Positions 36,905-40,471 of a stretch of 64,000 nt of DNA are shown here, one piece after another (the first letter of the stretch is position 1; each line of letters opens with the position of its first letter). A program made the translations under genes and the position numbers. Source of the DNA: Terriglobia bacterium (GTDB lineage: Bacteria > Acidobacteriota > Terriglobia > JAIQFV01); the NCBI GenBank assembly GCA_020072965.1, contig JAIQFY010000001.1, positions 62,001 to 126,000 on the forward strand. Reading direction: 5' to 3'. The notes under the pieces were generated by a model. The model saw only the letters and a list, made by a program, of their open reading frames with translations, was not told where the DNA came from and did no database searches.

Positions 36905-39900
36905 ATGGACAATGTCAATCAAAAGAATTATCTGATCGGTATGGATGTCGGCTCCACGACCGTGAAGGCTGTGGTTATTGACACCGCGACCGATGAGATC
37001 CTGTGGAAGGATTACCAGAGACACGACACCAAACAGCCCGAGAAGACCCTGGAACTGCTTCAGCGCATCGAGAAAGAAGTTCCAATTCCCAATCCTGAGC
37101 AGGTTCGTATTTTTATCACGGGCTCAGGCGGGAGCGGGATTGCTCCCCGGATCGGGGCGAAGTTTGTCCAGGAAGTCAACGCGGTGTCCCTGGCCGTGGA
37201 AAAGCTCTATCCGAAAACAGGATCCGTGATTGAACTGGGCGGCCAGGACGCCAAGATCATCATCTTCAAGGAAGATCCCGAAACCGGGAAAAAGAAGAAA
37301 ATCCCTTCCATGAACGACAAGTGTGCCGGCGGGACTGGAGCGGTGATTGACAAGATCAACGCCAAGCTTCGCATCCCCTCGGATGAGCTGTGCAAACAGG
37401 GCTACATGGGGAGAAAGCTTCATCCGGTGGCGGGAAAATGCGGAGTGTTTGCAGAAACCGACATCAACTCGCTCCAGAAGATGGGTGTGCCCCGCGATGA
37501 GTTGATGGCCTCGTTATTCGAGGCGATTGTGGGACAGAACTTGGCGGTGTTGACCCGGGGAAATACTTTACGACCTGAAGTGCTGCTGCTGGGCGGTCCA
37601 AACACTTACATTCAGGGGATGATGGAGGCATGGAAGTACAACATCCCCAAAGTGTGGCAGGAACGCAATTACCCCTTGCCGGAAGGGGTCGACCCCGCTG
37701 ACCTCATCAAGGTCCCGGACAATGCACAATACTTTGCCGCCATCGGGGCTTGTGAATATGGAAAGACTGAAGAGGCCGAAATCGGCGTTTACAAGGGATG
37801 GCAGGATCTCGAGCACTACATTACCTTCGGCCGCGCTGAAGAAAAGATGAAGAAGGGCGCGGGGGCGGGGCTCTCGAAGAACGAAGAAGATCTCAACGCC
37901 TTCAGAGAACGTTACAAGCATCCTAAGTTCGTTCCAGCGACCTTCCAGCGCGGTGAGGTGGTGGAAGGTTTCATTGGTCTCGATGGAGGCTCCACTTCGA
38001 CAAAAGCCGTTCTCCTGGACAAGAACCGGAATGTTCTCGTCAAAACCTATCAGCTTTCCAAGGGGAATCCCATCGAGGATACGATCGAAGTATTCGGCAA
38101 GTTGAGGAAGCAGGTGGAAGATCAGGGCGCGACGCTGAATGTCCTGGGCGTGGGGACGACCGGCTATGCCAAGGACATTTTAAAGGACACGATCCAGGCG
38201 GACGTCGCGCTGGTCGAAACCGTCGCCCACACCGAGTCAGCATTGCAGTTTTACAAAGACGTGGATGTCATTTGCGATGTCGGCGGCCAGGACATTAAGT
38301 TGATCATCCTGAAGAACCGGCAGGTCAAGGATTTCAAGTTAAACACACAATGCTCCGCGGGCAATGGTTACTTTCTGCAATCCACCGCCGAGGGTTTTGG
38401 AATTCCCGTTGAACAGTACGCCGATATTGCCTTCAAAGCCCAATCCATGCCGACCTTCGGCTATGGCTGTGCCGTCTTCATGCAGTCCGACATCGTGGAT
38501 TTCCAACGGCAGGGATGGAAGCCCGAGGAAATCATGGCTGGTCTGGCGGCCGTGTTGCCAAAAAACATCTGGCTCTACGTCTCCCAAATTCCCAATATTG
38601 CCGCCCTGGGTACCAATTTCGTCTTGCAGGGAGGAACCCAGCACAACCTCGCGGCGGTTAAGACCCAGGTTGACTTCATCGAGTCGCGTTTTAAGGGCAA
38701 AGAGGTCCAACCCCGCGTGATCGTTCATGAACACTGCGGAGAATCGGGGGCGATTGGGGCCGCCATCGAATGCGTTCGCATTCACGAAAACGGTCATCGC
38801 ACTTCCTTCATCGGCATGGACGCCGTCCAAAAAATCTCCTACGTGACCCATCGCAACGAAAACACGCGCTGCTACTTCTGCAAAAACAAATGTCTGCGGA
38901 CTTTCATCGATGTCAAGACGGGGGTCTTGGAGAACATTGAAACCCCCAAGAAATCAAAGATCCCGCTGGAAGCGGGAATCAAGCGCCTGATCGTCGGGAA
39001 CAGTTGCGAGAAGGGCCTGGTGGAAGACGTGGACGACATGCGGGTCATTAAGAAAGGTCTCGACACCGTCAAGCTGTCCAATCCCAACCTCGTGGAGCTT
39101 GCAGCCAAGGACTGTTGGAAGTCCATGAAACCCCTGCCAGTGGCGGATCCCATCCCCAGGTTTGCCGTGACGGCCGCTCAGAAAAAACGCGTCGAGCTGA
39201 TGAAGAAGCGCTCCCAGCTTCGAATCGGCATCCCCCGCGTCTTGAACATGTACTCCCAAAACCCCTTGTTCAGCGCCTACTTTGAATCTTTGGGCGTCAA
39301 GCCGGAAAACCTTGTCTATTCCGACTTCACCACCGAGCAGCTCTACAAGGAGGGTGCCAAGCGCGGCGCCATCGATCCGTGCTTCCCATCGAAGGTCGGC
39401 ATTCCCCACGTTCACAACCTGCTCTATGTCCATCACAAGAAGAAACCCCTCGATTTCATTTTCTTCCCGATGATTGATTGCCTGACCACCGATTTGCGGA
39501 ATGCCCAGGCCAGTCGTTCCTGCCCGACTGTGGCGGCAACTCCGGAGGCTGTTAAAGCGGCGTTCATGAAGGAAGGCGACGTCTTCGCAAAGATGGGGAC
39601 CCGTTTCCTCAATACCTTTGTGAACCTGAGCACTCCGAAGCTCTTCGAGAAACAGATGTTTGATGAATTCAAGGAGATCCTGGGGCTCGGCGAAGAGGAG
39701 AACCATCGCGCCATTCATGAGGCCTACAAGGCGTTGGATAAGTTCTCAAACGTTCTTCAACGCGGAAAGGCCCGCGAGGTGTTGGAGCAGATCGAGAAGG
39801 AAGACCGCCTCGGGATCGTCCTGTTAGGCCGGCCCTACCACAACGATCCGGGCATTAATCACGAGATTCTTGAAGAGTTTCAGAAGCAGGGGTACCCGGT

Positions 39901-40471
39901 CTTTGCCCAGGACTCCCTGCCAATCGATGACGACATTCTGGATCGGCTCTTTGGCGACGAGGTTCGAGCCGGCGACATTAAGCATCCCATGGATGTCAAC
40001 GACGTCTGGAAGAACAGCTATTCGGAAAACACCACTCGAAAGGTGTGGGCGGCCAAGTACGTGGCGCGCCATCCCAACCTCATCGCCCTCGAGTTGTCTT
40101 CCTTCAAATGCGGACACGACGCTCCCATTTACACCGTCGTTGAGGAGATCGTCCAGAATTCCGGGACGCCGTATTTCTGTTTCAAGGACATCGACGAGAA
40201 CAAACCCACCGGTTCCATCAAAATTCGTGTCGAGACGATTACGTACTTCCTGAAGCGATACCGCGAGGACATGATTGCGAATAAGAATAAGGAACAGACC
40301 CTGGAACAACGACTGGCCGAATACGAGCGCCGGCTCCGCACTCAGTTGACGGCGCCTGAGAGTTCTCCTCGGGAGGTTTCGGAGGAGCTCTTGCCCCCGA
40401 TTCTCGACAACTACTTCCCGGCAAGTCAGGTGGCGGCGACGGTGGAGGAGGAGCGTCGAGTCAGCAGCTGA
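36905..40471 (+). CDS. Tandem BadF/BcrA-type activase with DUF2229 module
   Basis: 1188 residues. Two ASKHA ATPase domains of the BcrAD/BadFG/HgdC type lie in tandem: the first with GMDVGSTTVKAVVID near residue 13, the second with GLDGGSTSTKAVLLDK near residue 358. Each has a cysteine pair 39 residues apart (Cys140/Cys179 and Cys483/Cys522), the spacing of the HgdC Fe-S ligands Cys127/Cys166. A Cys656-x2-Cys659-x3-Cys663 motif follows. The C-terminal half is DUF2229-like (RIGIPRVLNMYSQNPLFSAY, GAIDPCFPSKVGIPHVHNL, GRPYHNDPGINHEI). HgdC-type activases use ATP hydrolysis to push one low-potential electron into a partner Fe-S enzyme. The neighbour at 34973 is the likely partner; the reaction is unknown. 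Confidence 0.82.
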   Translation: MDNVNQKNYLIGMDVGSTTVKAVVIDTATDEILWKDYQRHDTKQPEKTLELLQRIEKEVPIPNPEQVRIFITGSGGSGIAPRIGAKFVQEVNAVSLAVEKLYPKTGSVIELGGQDAKIIIFKEDPETGKKKKIPSMNDKCAGGTGAVIDKINAKLRIPSDELCKQGYMGRKLHPVAGKCGVFAETDINSLQKMGVPRDELMASLFEAIVGQNLAVLTRGNTLRPEVLLLGGPNTYIQGMMEAWKYNIPKVWQERNYPLPEGVDPADLIKVPDNAQYFAAIGACEYGKTEEAEIGVYKGWQDLEHYITFGRAEEKMKKGAGAGLSKNEEDLNAFRERYKHPKFVPATFQRGEVVEGFIGLDGGSTSTKAVLLDKNRNVLVKTYQLSKGNPIEDTIEVFGKLRKQVEDQGATLNVLGVGTTGYAKDILKDTIQADVALVETVAHTESALQFYKDVDVICDVGGQDIKLIILKNRQVKDFKLNTQCSAGNGYFLQSTAEGFGIPVEQYADIAFKAQSMPTFGYGCAVFMQSDIVDFQRQGWKPEEIMAGLAAVLPKNIWLYVSQIPNIAALGTNFVLQGGTQHNLAAVKTQVDFIESRFKGKEVQPRVIVHEHCGESGAIGAAIECVRIHENGHRTSFIGMDAVQKISYVTHRNENTRCYFCKNKCLRTFIDVKTGVLENIETPKKSKIPLEAGIKRLIVGNSCEKGLVEDVDDMRVIKKGLDTVKLSNPNLVELAAKDCWKSMKPLPVADPIPRFAVTAAQKKRVELMKKRSQLRIGIPRVLNMYSQNPLFSAYFESLGVKPENLVYSDFTTEQLYKEGAKRGAIDPCFPSKVGIPHVHNLLYVHHKKKPLDFIFFPMIDCLTTDLRNAQASRSCPTVAATPEAVKAAFMKEGDVFAKMGTRFLNTFVNLSTPKLFEKQMFDEFKEILGLGEEENHRAIHEAYKALDKFSNVLQRGKAREVLEQIEKEDRLGIVLLGRPYHNDPGINHEILEEFQKQGYPVFAQDSLPIDDDILDRLFGDEVRAGDIKHPMDVNDVWKNSYSENTTRKVWAAKYVARHPNLIALELSSFKCGHDAPIYTVVEEIVQNSGTPYFCFKDIDENKPTGSIKIRVETITYFLKRYREDMIANKNKEQTLEQRLAEYERRLRTQLTAPESSPREVSEELLPPILDNYFPASQVAATVEEERRVSS

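Follow-up and report, generated by a model that had tools for sequence, protein, structure and literature searches.

How a single protein comes to carry two copies of an ATPase that usually works as a homodimer, and what such a protein would activate, are questions raised by a locus in the genome of a Terriglobia bacterium. The locus lies in a 64,000-nucleotide stretch of contig JAIQFY010000001.1 (assembly GCA_020072965.1; hereafter the window), where a gene for an 1188-residue protein (P0001) follows a gene for a 618-residue partner (P0002). P0001 contains two activase domains (Act1 and Act2) in one chain, unlike the single-domain, homodimeric activases of the HgdC type, and continues into a DUF2229 part (Red1); the partner is designated Red2. 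The two genes at 34973-40471 probably encode a complete ATP-driven reductase of the benzoyl-CoA reductase (BCR)/2-hydroxyacyl-CoA dehydratase (HAD) family, with the layout of the plasmalogen synthase PlsA/PlsR and a glycerolipid acyl ester as the most likely substrate.

Two activase domains and a candidate shared cluster

The presence of two BcrA/HgdC-type ATPase domains, proposed in the initial annotation of this DNA, was borne out by the open reading frame (ORF) and by two family models. P0001 matches PF01869 of Pfam in two stretches (239.3 bits, cut-off 31.5) and the NCBIfam model TIGR00241, 'acyl-CoA dehydratase activase', also in two stretches (207.2 bits, cut-off 125.4). Its best sequence matches in the PDB are the activators 4eht, 1hux, 9gai (MbdQ/MbdP) and 7yyl. 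The AlphaFold2 model of the whole chain has a mean pLDDT (predicted local distance difference test) of 81.5 and a pTM (predicted template modelling score) of 0.74, and the closest folds to Act2 are 9gai_D (Z 18.6), 4ehu_B (18.4) and 1hux_A (17.3). The phosphate-1 (GxDxGST..K), phosphate-2 (GGQD) and adenosine (GG) motifs are intact in both halves, reading GMDVGSTTVK, IELGGQDAK and LLLGGPNTYI in Act1. Because the phosphate-2 motif is intact in each half, both may be able to hydrolyse ATP.

Each half also contains a cysteine pair (140/179 and 483/522) that had been noted as 39 residues apart and equivalent to the cluster ligands of HgdC, and the alignments agree. Cys483 and Cys522 fall on residues 127 and 166 of HgdC in a phmmer alignment to 1hux, and Cys140 and Cys179 occupy the same columns as Cys483 and Cys522 in the domain alignment. 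The four cysteines are conserved without exception in 80/80 orthologues; in the wider tandem family the pair is kept in 36/36 first and 39/39 second halves, with a spacing of 38-41, and it is also found in 14/14 single-domain activases. A homologue lacking one of the pairs, which had been named beforehand as an observation that would refute the pseudo-dimer, was looked for and was not found in the orthologues or in either set of halves. Thus, the claim that all four HgdC-type ligands reside in one chain was upheld for every tandem homologue examined, as was the suggested divergence of the two halves, which are 23% identical to each other and 76% (first) or 79% (second) identical to their own orthologues. 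An internal pseudo-dimer, in which one [4Fe-4S] cluster would be shared by Cys140, Cys179, Cys483 and Cys522, is well supported by this conservation.

The halves of the tandem family were found to differ in their ATPase motifs. GGQD is present in 37/39 second halves, but in only 14/36 first halves; among the 22 that depart from it, 7 have the mild change GGED and 15 are without the Asp, and both cysteines are retained in all 36. Two fused proteins (L142, 1467-5906, and L147, 2540-7639, both on the minus strand) have VSIGSRGFS in place of GGQD in the first half and keep both cysteines. Retention of ligand cysteines without the ATPase motif is expected if the cluster is common to both halves.

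It has been reported that the activases of class I BCR are heterodimers of separately made subunits bridged by a [4Fe-4S] cluster, so two non-identical halves are able to share one cluster (PMC11971306). The fused protein resembles these activases (BcrAD, BzdPQ and MbdPQ; 9gai) in having two non-identical halves and one predicted bridging [4Fe-4S] cluster, and the best structural match of Act2, 9gai_D, is a class I BCR activase. It resembles HgdC (1hux) and the 2-hydroxyisocaproyl-CoA dehydratase activator (4eht) in the ATPase fold of Act2 (Z 17-18) and in the cysteine pair 39 apart at equivalent positions; however, HgdC has one domain and forms a homodimer, whereas two diverged domains and a DUF2229 part are found in each chain here. 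Moreover, the class I BCR activases are separate subunits and the BCR catalytic subunits are members of PF06050 (HGD-D), unlike those of the window, as neither P0001 nor P0002 matches this Pfam family. The NCBIfam equivalogs of class I BCR lie far under their cut-offs for P0001 (TIGR02259, 118.9 vs 578 bits; TIGR02261, 70.6 vs 312.9; TIGR03192, 79 vs 380.2). With these scores and no PF06050 match, a class I BCR identity for 34973-40471 was rejected.

The source genome itself contains a Bzd-like benzoyl-CoA reductase operon on another contig (C41; L122, 5712-10179, minus strand), which encodes two PF06050 proteins, scoring 205-211 bits on this model, and two separate activase subunits. This operon represents a heterodimeric counterpart of the fused activase within the same genome.

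The partner protein and the DUF2229 part

The initial annotation had treated P0001 as an activase only, which did not hold, since its C-terminus and the product of the upstream gene appear to form a catalytic part. In 73/73 orthologous loci whose contig covers that side, the partner gene lies directly upstream, and the gap between the two genes in the window is 75 bp. The pair likely forms a two-gene operon ended by a terminator-like hairpin, which is a consensus match only, the count of such sites in the region being no higher than in shuffles.

No Pfam family match was obtained for P0002. Its relatives include the C-terminal ~400 residues of fused tandem proteins of ~1400 residues. In the wider family, Cys132, Cys174 and Cys493 are present in 24/24 partners and fused C-termini, and Cys171 occurs, with one exception, only in window-type partners and the proteins closest to them. 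The top eight PDB rows for the AlphaFold2 model of the partner (mean pLDDT 80) are all chains of catalytic subunits, namely of the double-cubane cluster protein (DCCP), 2-hydroxyisocaproyl-CoA dehydratase, BzdNO and MbdON (Z 8.4-9.8), including the HGD-D superfamily chains 3o3n_B (Z 9.7) and 3o3m_D (Z 9.6). The same families lead in a Foldseek search. Because its best fold matches are all DCCP, HAD and BCR catalytic chains, P0002 is very probably a catalytic subunit.

In the DUF2229 part, Cys826 and Cys873 are kept by every orthologue (80/80), Cys1069 is a cysteine in all 75 sequences that reach this position, and the three are present in 40/40 tandem proteins. Profile-profile comparison of this part with HGD-D gave a probability of 40-50%, which is too weak alone to show homology. 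We infer a HAD-like fold for Red1 from its three cysteines and because related partners match DUF2229 weakly. BzdO holds its catalytic [4Fe-4S] cluster by three cysteines, 95, 128 and 380 (PMC11971306), and the three-cysteine sites of Red1 (826/873/1069) and of the partner (132/174/493) parallel this arrangement. The module is also similar to the system of DCCP and its reductase (7yyl, 6eno), in that the partner has a catalytic-subunit fold into which an activase would drive electrons; that system, unlike the window pair, has homodimeric parts, a single-domain activase and an [8Fe-9S] cluster, and fewer conserved cysteines are found here.

Between Act2 and Red1 lies a linker in which a C-x2-C-x3-C motif at 656-663 had been suggested to hold a second cluster. 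The motif was confirmed, and a fourth invariant cysteine, C701, completes the set. Among the tandem proteins compared, C656, C663 and C701 occur in 37/37 and C659 in 35/37. The linker cysteines are missing only in a Paraclostridium plasmid copy. The four may bind a further metal site, either an Fe-S cluster or zinc.

Other arrangements of these parts were also observed. Two loci (L144, 1-5096, and L145, 1077-6070) carry the DUF2229 part as a gene of its own, which follows the tandem activase gene, with the partner gene coming first. A Monoglobus plasmid (L188, 1770-4987) contains an unfused row of genes annotated as an activase-related protein, a 2-hydroxyacyl-CoA dehydratase and a single activase. 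The features of the two-gene module are collected in the table below.

Table 1. Predicted features of the two-gene module, in window coordinates
Feature	Position	Strand	Support
Partner P0002, 618 aa (probable Red2 / PlsR-like catalytic subunit)	34973..36829	+	upstream, adjacent in 73/73
Partner Cys132, Cys171, Cys174	35366..35494	+	invariant in 66/66 orthologues
Partner Cys493, third likely cluster ligand	36449..36451	+	66/66 and 24/24
Tandem activase + DUF2229 protein P0001, 1188 aa (PlsA-like: Act1-Act2-4Cys-Red1)	36905..40471	+	
Act1, first BcrAD/BadFG ATPase domain, residues ~8-297	36926..37795	+	second stretch in both Pfam and TIGR00241
Cys140 (37322-37324) to Cys179 (37439-37441), first putative cluster-ligand pair	37322..37441	+	80/80 orthologues, 36/36 first halves
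Act2, second BcrAD/BadFG ATPase domain, residues 352-632	37958..38800	+	PF01869, 357-621
Cys483 (38351-38353) to Cys522 (38468-38470), second putative ligand pair, equivalent to HgdC Cys127/166	38351..38470	+	
Four-Cys linker, C656-x2-C659-x3-C663-x37-C701	38870..39007	+	80/80 orthologues
DUF2229 / Red1 catalytic-like domain, residues ~773-1118, with Cys826, Cys873 and Cys1069	39221..40258	+	PF09989, 773-1005, 170 bits
Terminator-like hairpin (10 pairs) and T run, just past the stop codon	40500..40524	+	consensus match

Distribution and phylogeny

A genome scan identified 80 orthologous loci (60-78% identity) in Acidobacteriota (mostly Bryobacterales), Poribacteria, Ignavibacteria, Bacteroidetes, Thermoleophilia and others, and window-type loci were frequent in Solibacter and other metagenome-assembled genomes (MAGs) of Bryobacterales. 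The Lon protein of the source organism is 66% identical to that of one Acidobacteria MAG and about 46-58% identical to those of the others compared. Besides the partner, no neighbouring gene was conserved across phyla, and the largest neighbour clusters looked like out-of-frame or antisense artefacts of the partner gene. In Ignavibacteria orthologues (L071, 2704-4053; L080, 807-1793), the module is directly preceded by genes of the squalene/phytoene synthase and amine-oxidase families; these neighbours possibly indicate a lipid context, in Ignavibacteria only.

In a tree of 89 activase domains, all first halves form one group (support 99/93), all second halves form another (79/44; 82% of bootstrap trees), and the single-domain activases stand apart as a third (100/100). 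Since first halves group together, second halves together and single-domain activases apart, the two halves derive from one old duplication that has been inherited as a unit. The full-length tree, which was built without spurious out-of-frame ORFs, contains three groups, A, B and C. Group B comprises the window type (100/100), and group A includes proteins of Listeria, Fusobacterium, Collinsella, Acetoanaerobium, Subdoligranulum and Haliovirga together with fused proteins. Under midpoint rooting, A and B join with full support (100/100). In the domain tree, where each half is able to root the other, first and second halves alike place the window type with the fused group-A proteins that this tree contained (100/99 and 99/93). 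The window type, clade B, is a well-supported distinct subfamily found in Bryobacterales, Poribacteria, Ignavibacteria and Thermoleophilia. Its sister is clade A, which we take to be of the PlsA type by its architecture, gene sizes and organisms.

Group C includes two further pairs of tandem activase and partner from the source genome itself (L120, 4366-9020, and L121, 4887-9395, on contigs C42 and C43), in which the partner is downstream.

Relationship to PlsA/PlsR and the likely substrate

The plasmalogen synthase PlsA/PlsR belongs to the BCR/HAD family and has four domains, of which Act1 and Act2 serve activation and Red1 and Red2 reduction; C. perfringens encodes it in two neighbouring genes, E. 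faecalis, L. cremoris and B. longum each in one, and these genes gave plasmalogens when introduced into E. coli (PMC12838417). An ester-to-ether role has been proposed for a PlsA-like ('modified PlsA') protein of Thermotoga maritima (PMC8788747), and PlsAR homologues in Solibacter usitatus have been proposed to carry out the first, ester-to-ether, step of branched tetraether synthesis (PMC10087280). The pair at 34973-40471 shows the same Act1-Act2-Red1-Red2 arrangement in two adjacent genes with conserved cysteines (PMC12838417; PMC8788747), and its relatives are fused into one gene elsewhere, as PlsA is in some hosts. Because this architecture is the published one of PlsA/PlsR, the tandem activase is already known in kind, and the window protein represents a distinct subfamily with a fixed partner gene. 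Thus, of the pseudo-dimer described in the initial annotation, the four ligands in one chain and the diverged halves stand, whereas the catalytic part and the tandem precedent in PlsA had been overlooked. The window type also differs from PlsA-type proteins in the extra invariant Cys171 of its partner and in an Act1 that keeps GGQD.

In the proposed mechanism, Act1 and Act2 of the same chain would pair, with a single [4Fe-4S] cluster bound by Cys140, Cys179, Cys483 and Cys522, and a ferredoxin or flavodoxin would reduce this cluster. ATP binding and hydrolysis would drive low-potential electrons, one at a time, from there to clusters in Red1 (Cys826/873/1069) and Red2 (Cys132/174/493 of the upstream protein, with Cys171 nearby), where a glycerolipid acyl ester would be reduced to a vinyl or alkyl ether. 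We infer the cluster occupancy, the pairing within the chain and the electron path by analogy with HgdC and BCR; the glycerolipid ester-to-ether reaction is a best guess, with the substrate taken from kinship only.

Several points weigh against this assignment. The placing of a shared cluster between Cys140, Cys179, Cys483 and Cys522 is a prediction from conservation and analogy. For the partner, the fold matches reach only modest scores (Z 8-10; Foldseek E 0.004-0.1), and the profile-profile match to HGD-D is weak (probability <=2.6%). P0001 is only ~30% identical to a Listeria protein of PlsA-like architecture. The partner is upstream here, the reverse of the plsA-plsR order of C. perfringens, and has 618 residues, compared with 404-498 in groups A and C. 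The trees contain no experimentally tested PlsA, clade A being anchored by architecture, size and organisms only, and the stem leading to clade B is long in the full-length tree (1.69 changes per column), so the substrate of this clade may have changed.

Among the alternatives, the same machine could have a CoA thioester as its substrate and be either a radical 2-hydroxyacyl-CoA dehydratase or an aryl- or enoyl-CoA reductase, comparable to HgdAB/HgdC or BzdNOPQ. Both the activase fold and the catalytic fold are found in CoA enzymes, and the Bzd-like operon in the same genome means that the CoA-thioester chemistry of the family occurs in this organism. We nevertheless consider such a substrate unlikely: both proteins lack a PF06050 match, the benzoyl-CoA reductase models match far under their cut-offs, no acyl-CoA metabolism gene is conserved beside the module across loci, and the tree places the module with tandem proteins, apart from the single-domain activases that are associated with HGD-D.

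A different assembly, in which Act1 and Act2 would pair between two chains to give two bridging clusters per dimer, is compatible with the sequence, and HgdC itself is a homodimer. The loss of the GGQD Asp from Act1 of many tandem proteins, with the cysteines kept, argues against an independent Act1-Act1 pair, but does not speak against Act1-Act2 pairing across chains. In the related class I BCR, however, a single cluster bridges the one heterodimer that makes up the ATP module (PMC11971306), and pairing between chains appears quite improbable. The least probable alternative is a DCCP-like double-cubane reductase of small molecules with an [8Fe-9S] cluster in its catalytic part. DCCP chains do stand among the closest folds to the partner (7yyl_A, Z 9.8; 6eno, 8.4), but this reading was rejected, because the scores of HAD and BzdO chains are just as good (Z 9.3-9.7) and because Red1 and Red2 have only three universal cysteines each, to which window-type partners add one more, too few for a cluster that needs about six ligands.

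An ester-to-ether reductase of the PlsA/PlsR layout thus remains the favoured assignment. The tandem activase is no peculiarity of a single genome, and the ligand pair is kept in every half examined. Because every half keeps the pair and one half can lose the ATPase motif alone, a shared cluster in a fused, asymmetric activase is now directly testable. As a more specific and tentative proposal, the clade B pair might be dedicated to the ester-to-ether reduction of lipids in Acidobacteria and in several more uncultured phyla, having split early from the plasmalogen synthase and kept two working ATPase halves. Branched tetraether lipids are a widely used climate proxy, and their origin in soil Acidobacteria is still being worked out. 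A conserved two-gene candidate can now be named for the ester-to-ether step in these bacteria and, if the proposal is true, the clade B pair would provide the missing ether-forming step for bacterial lipids, including branched tetraethers, in organisms such as Solibacter.

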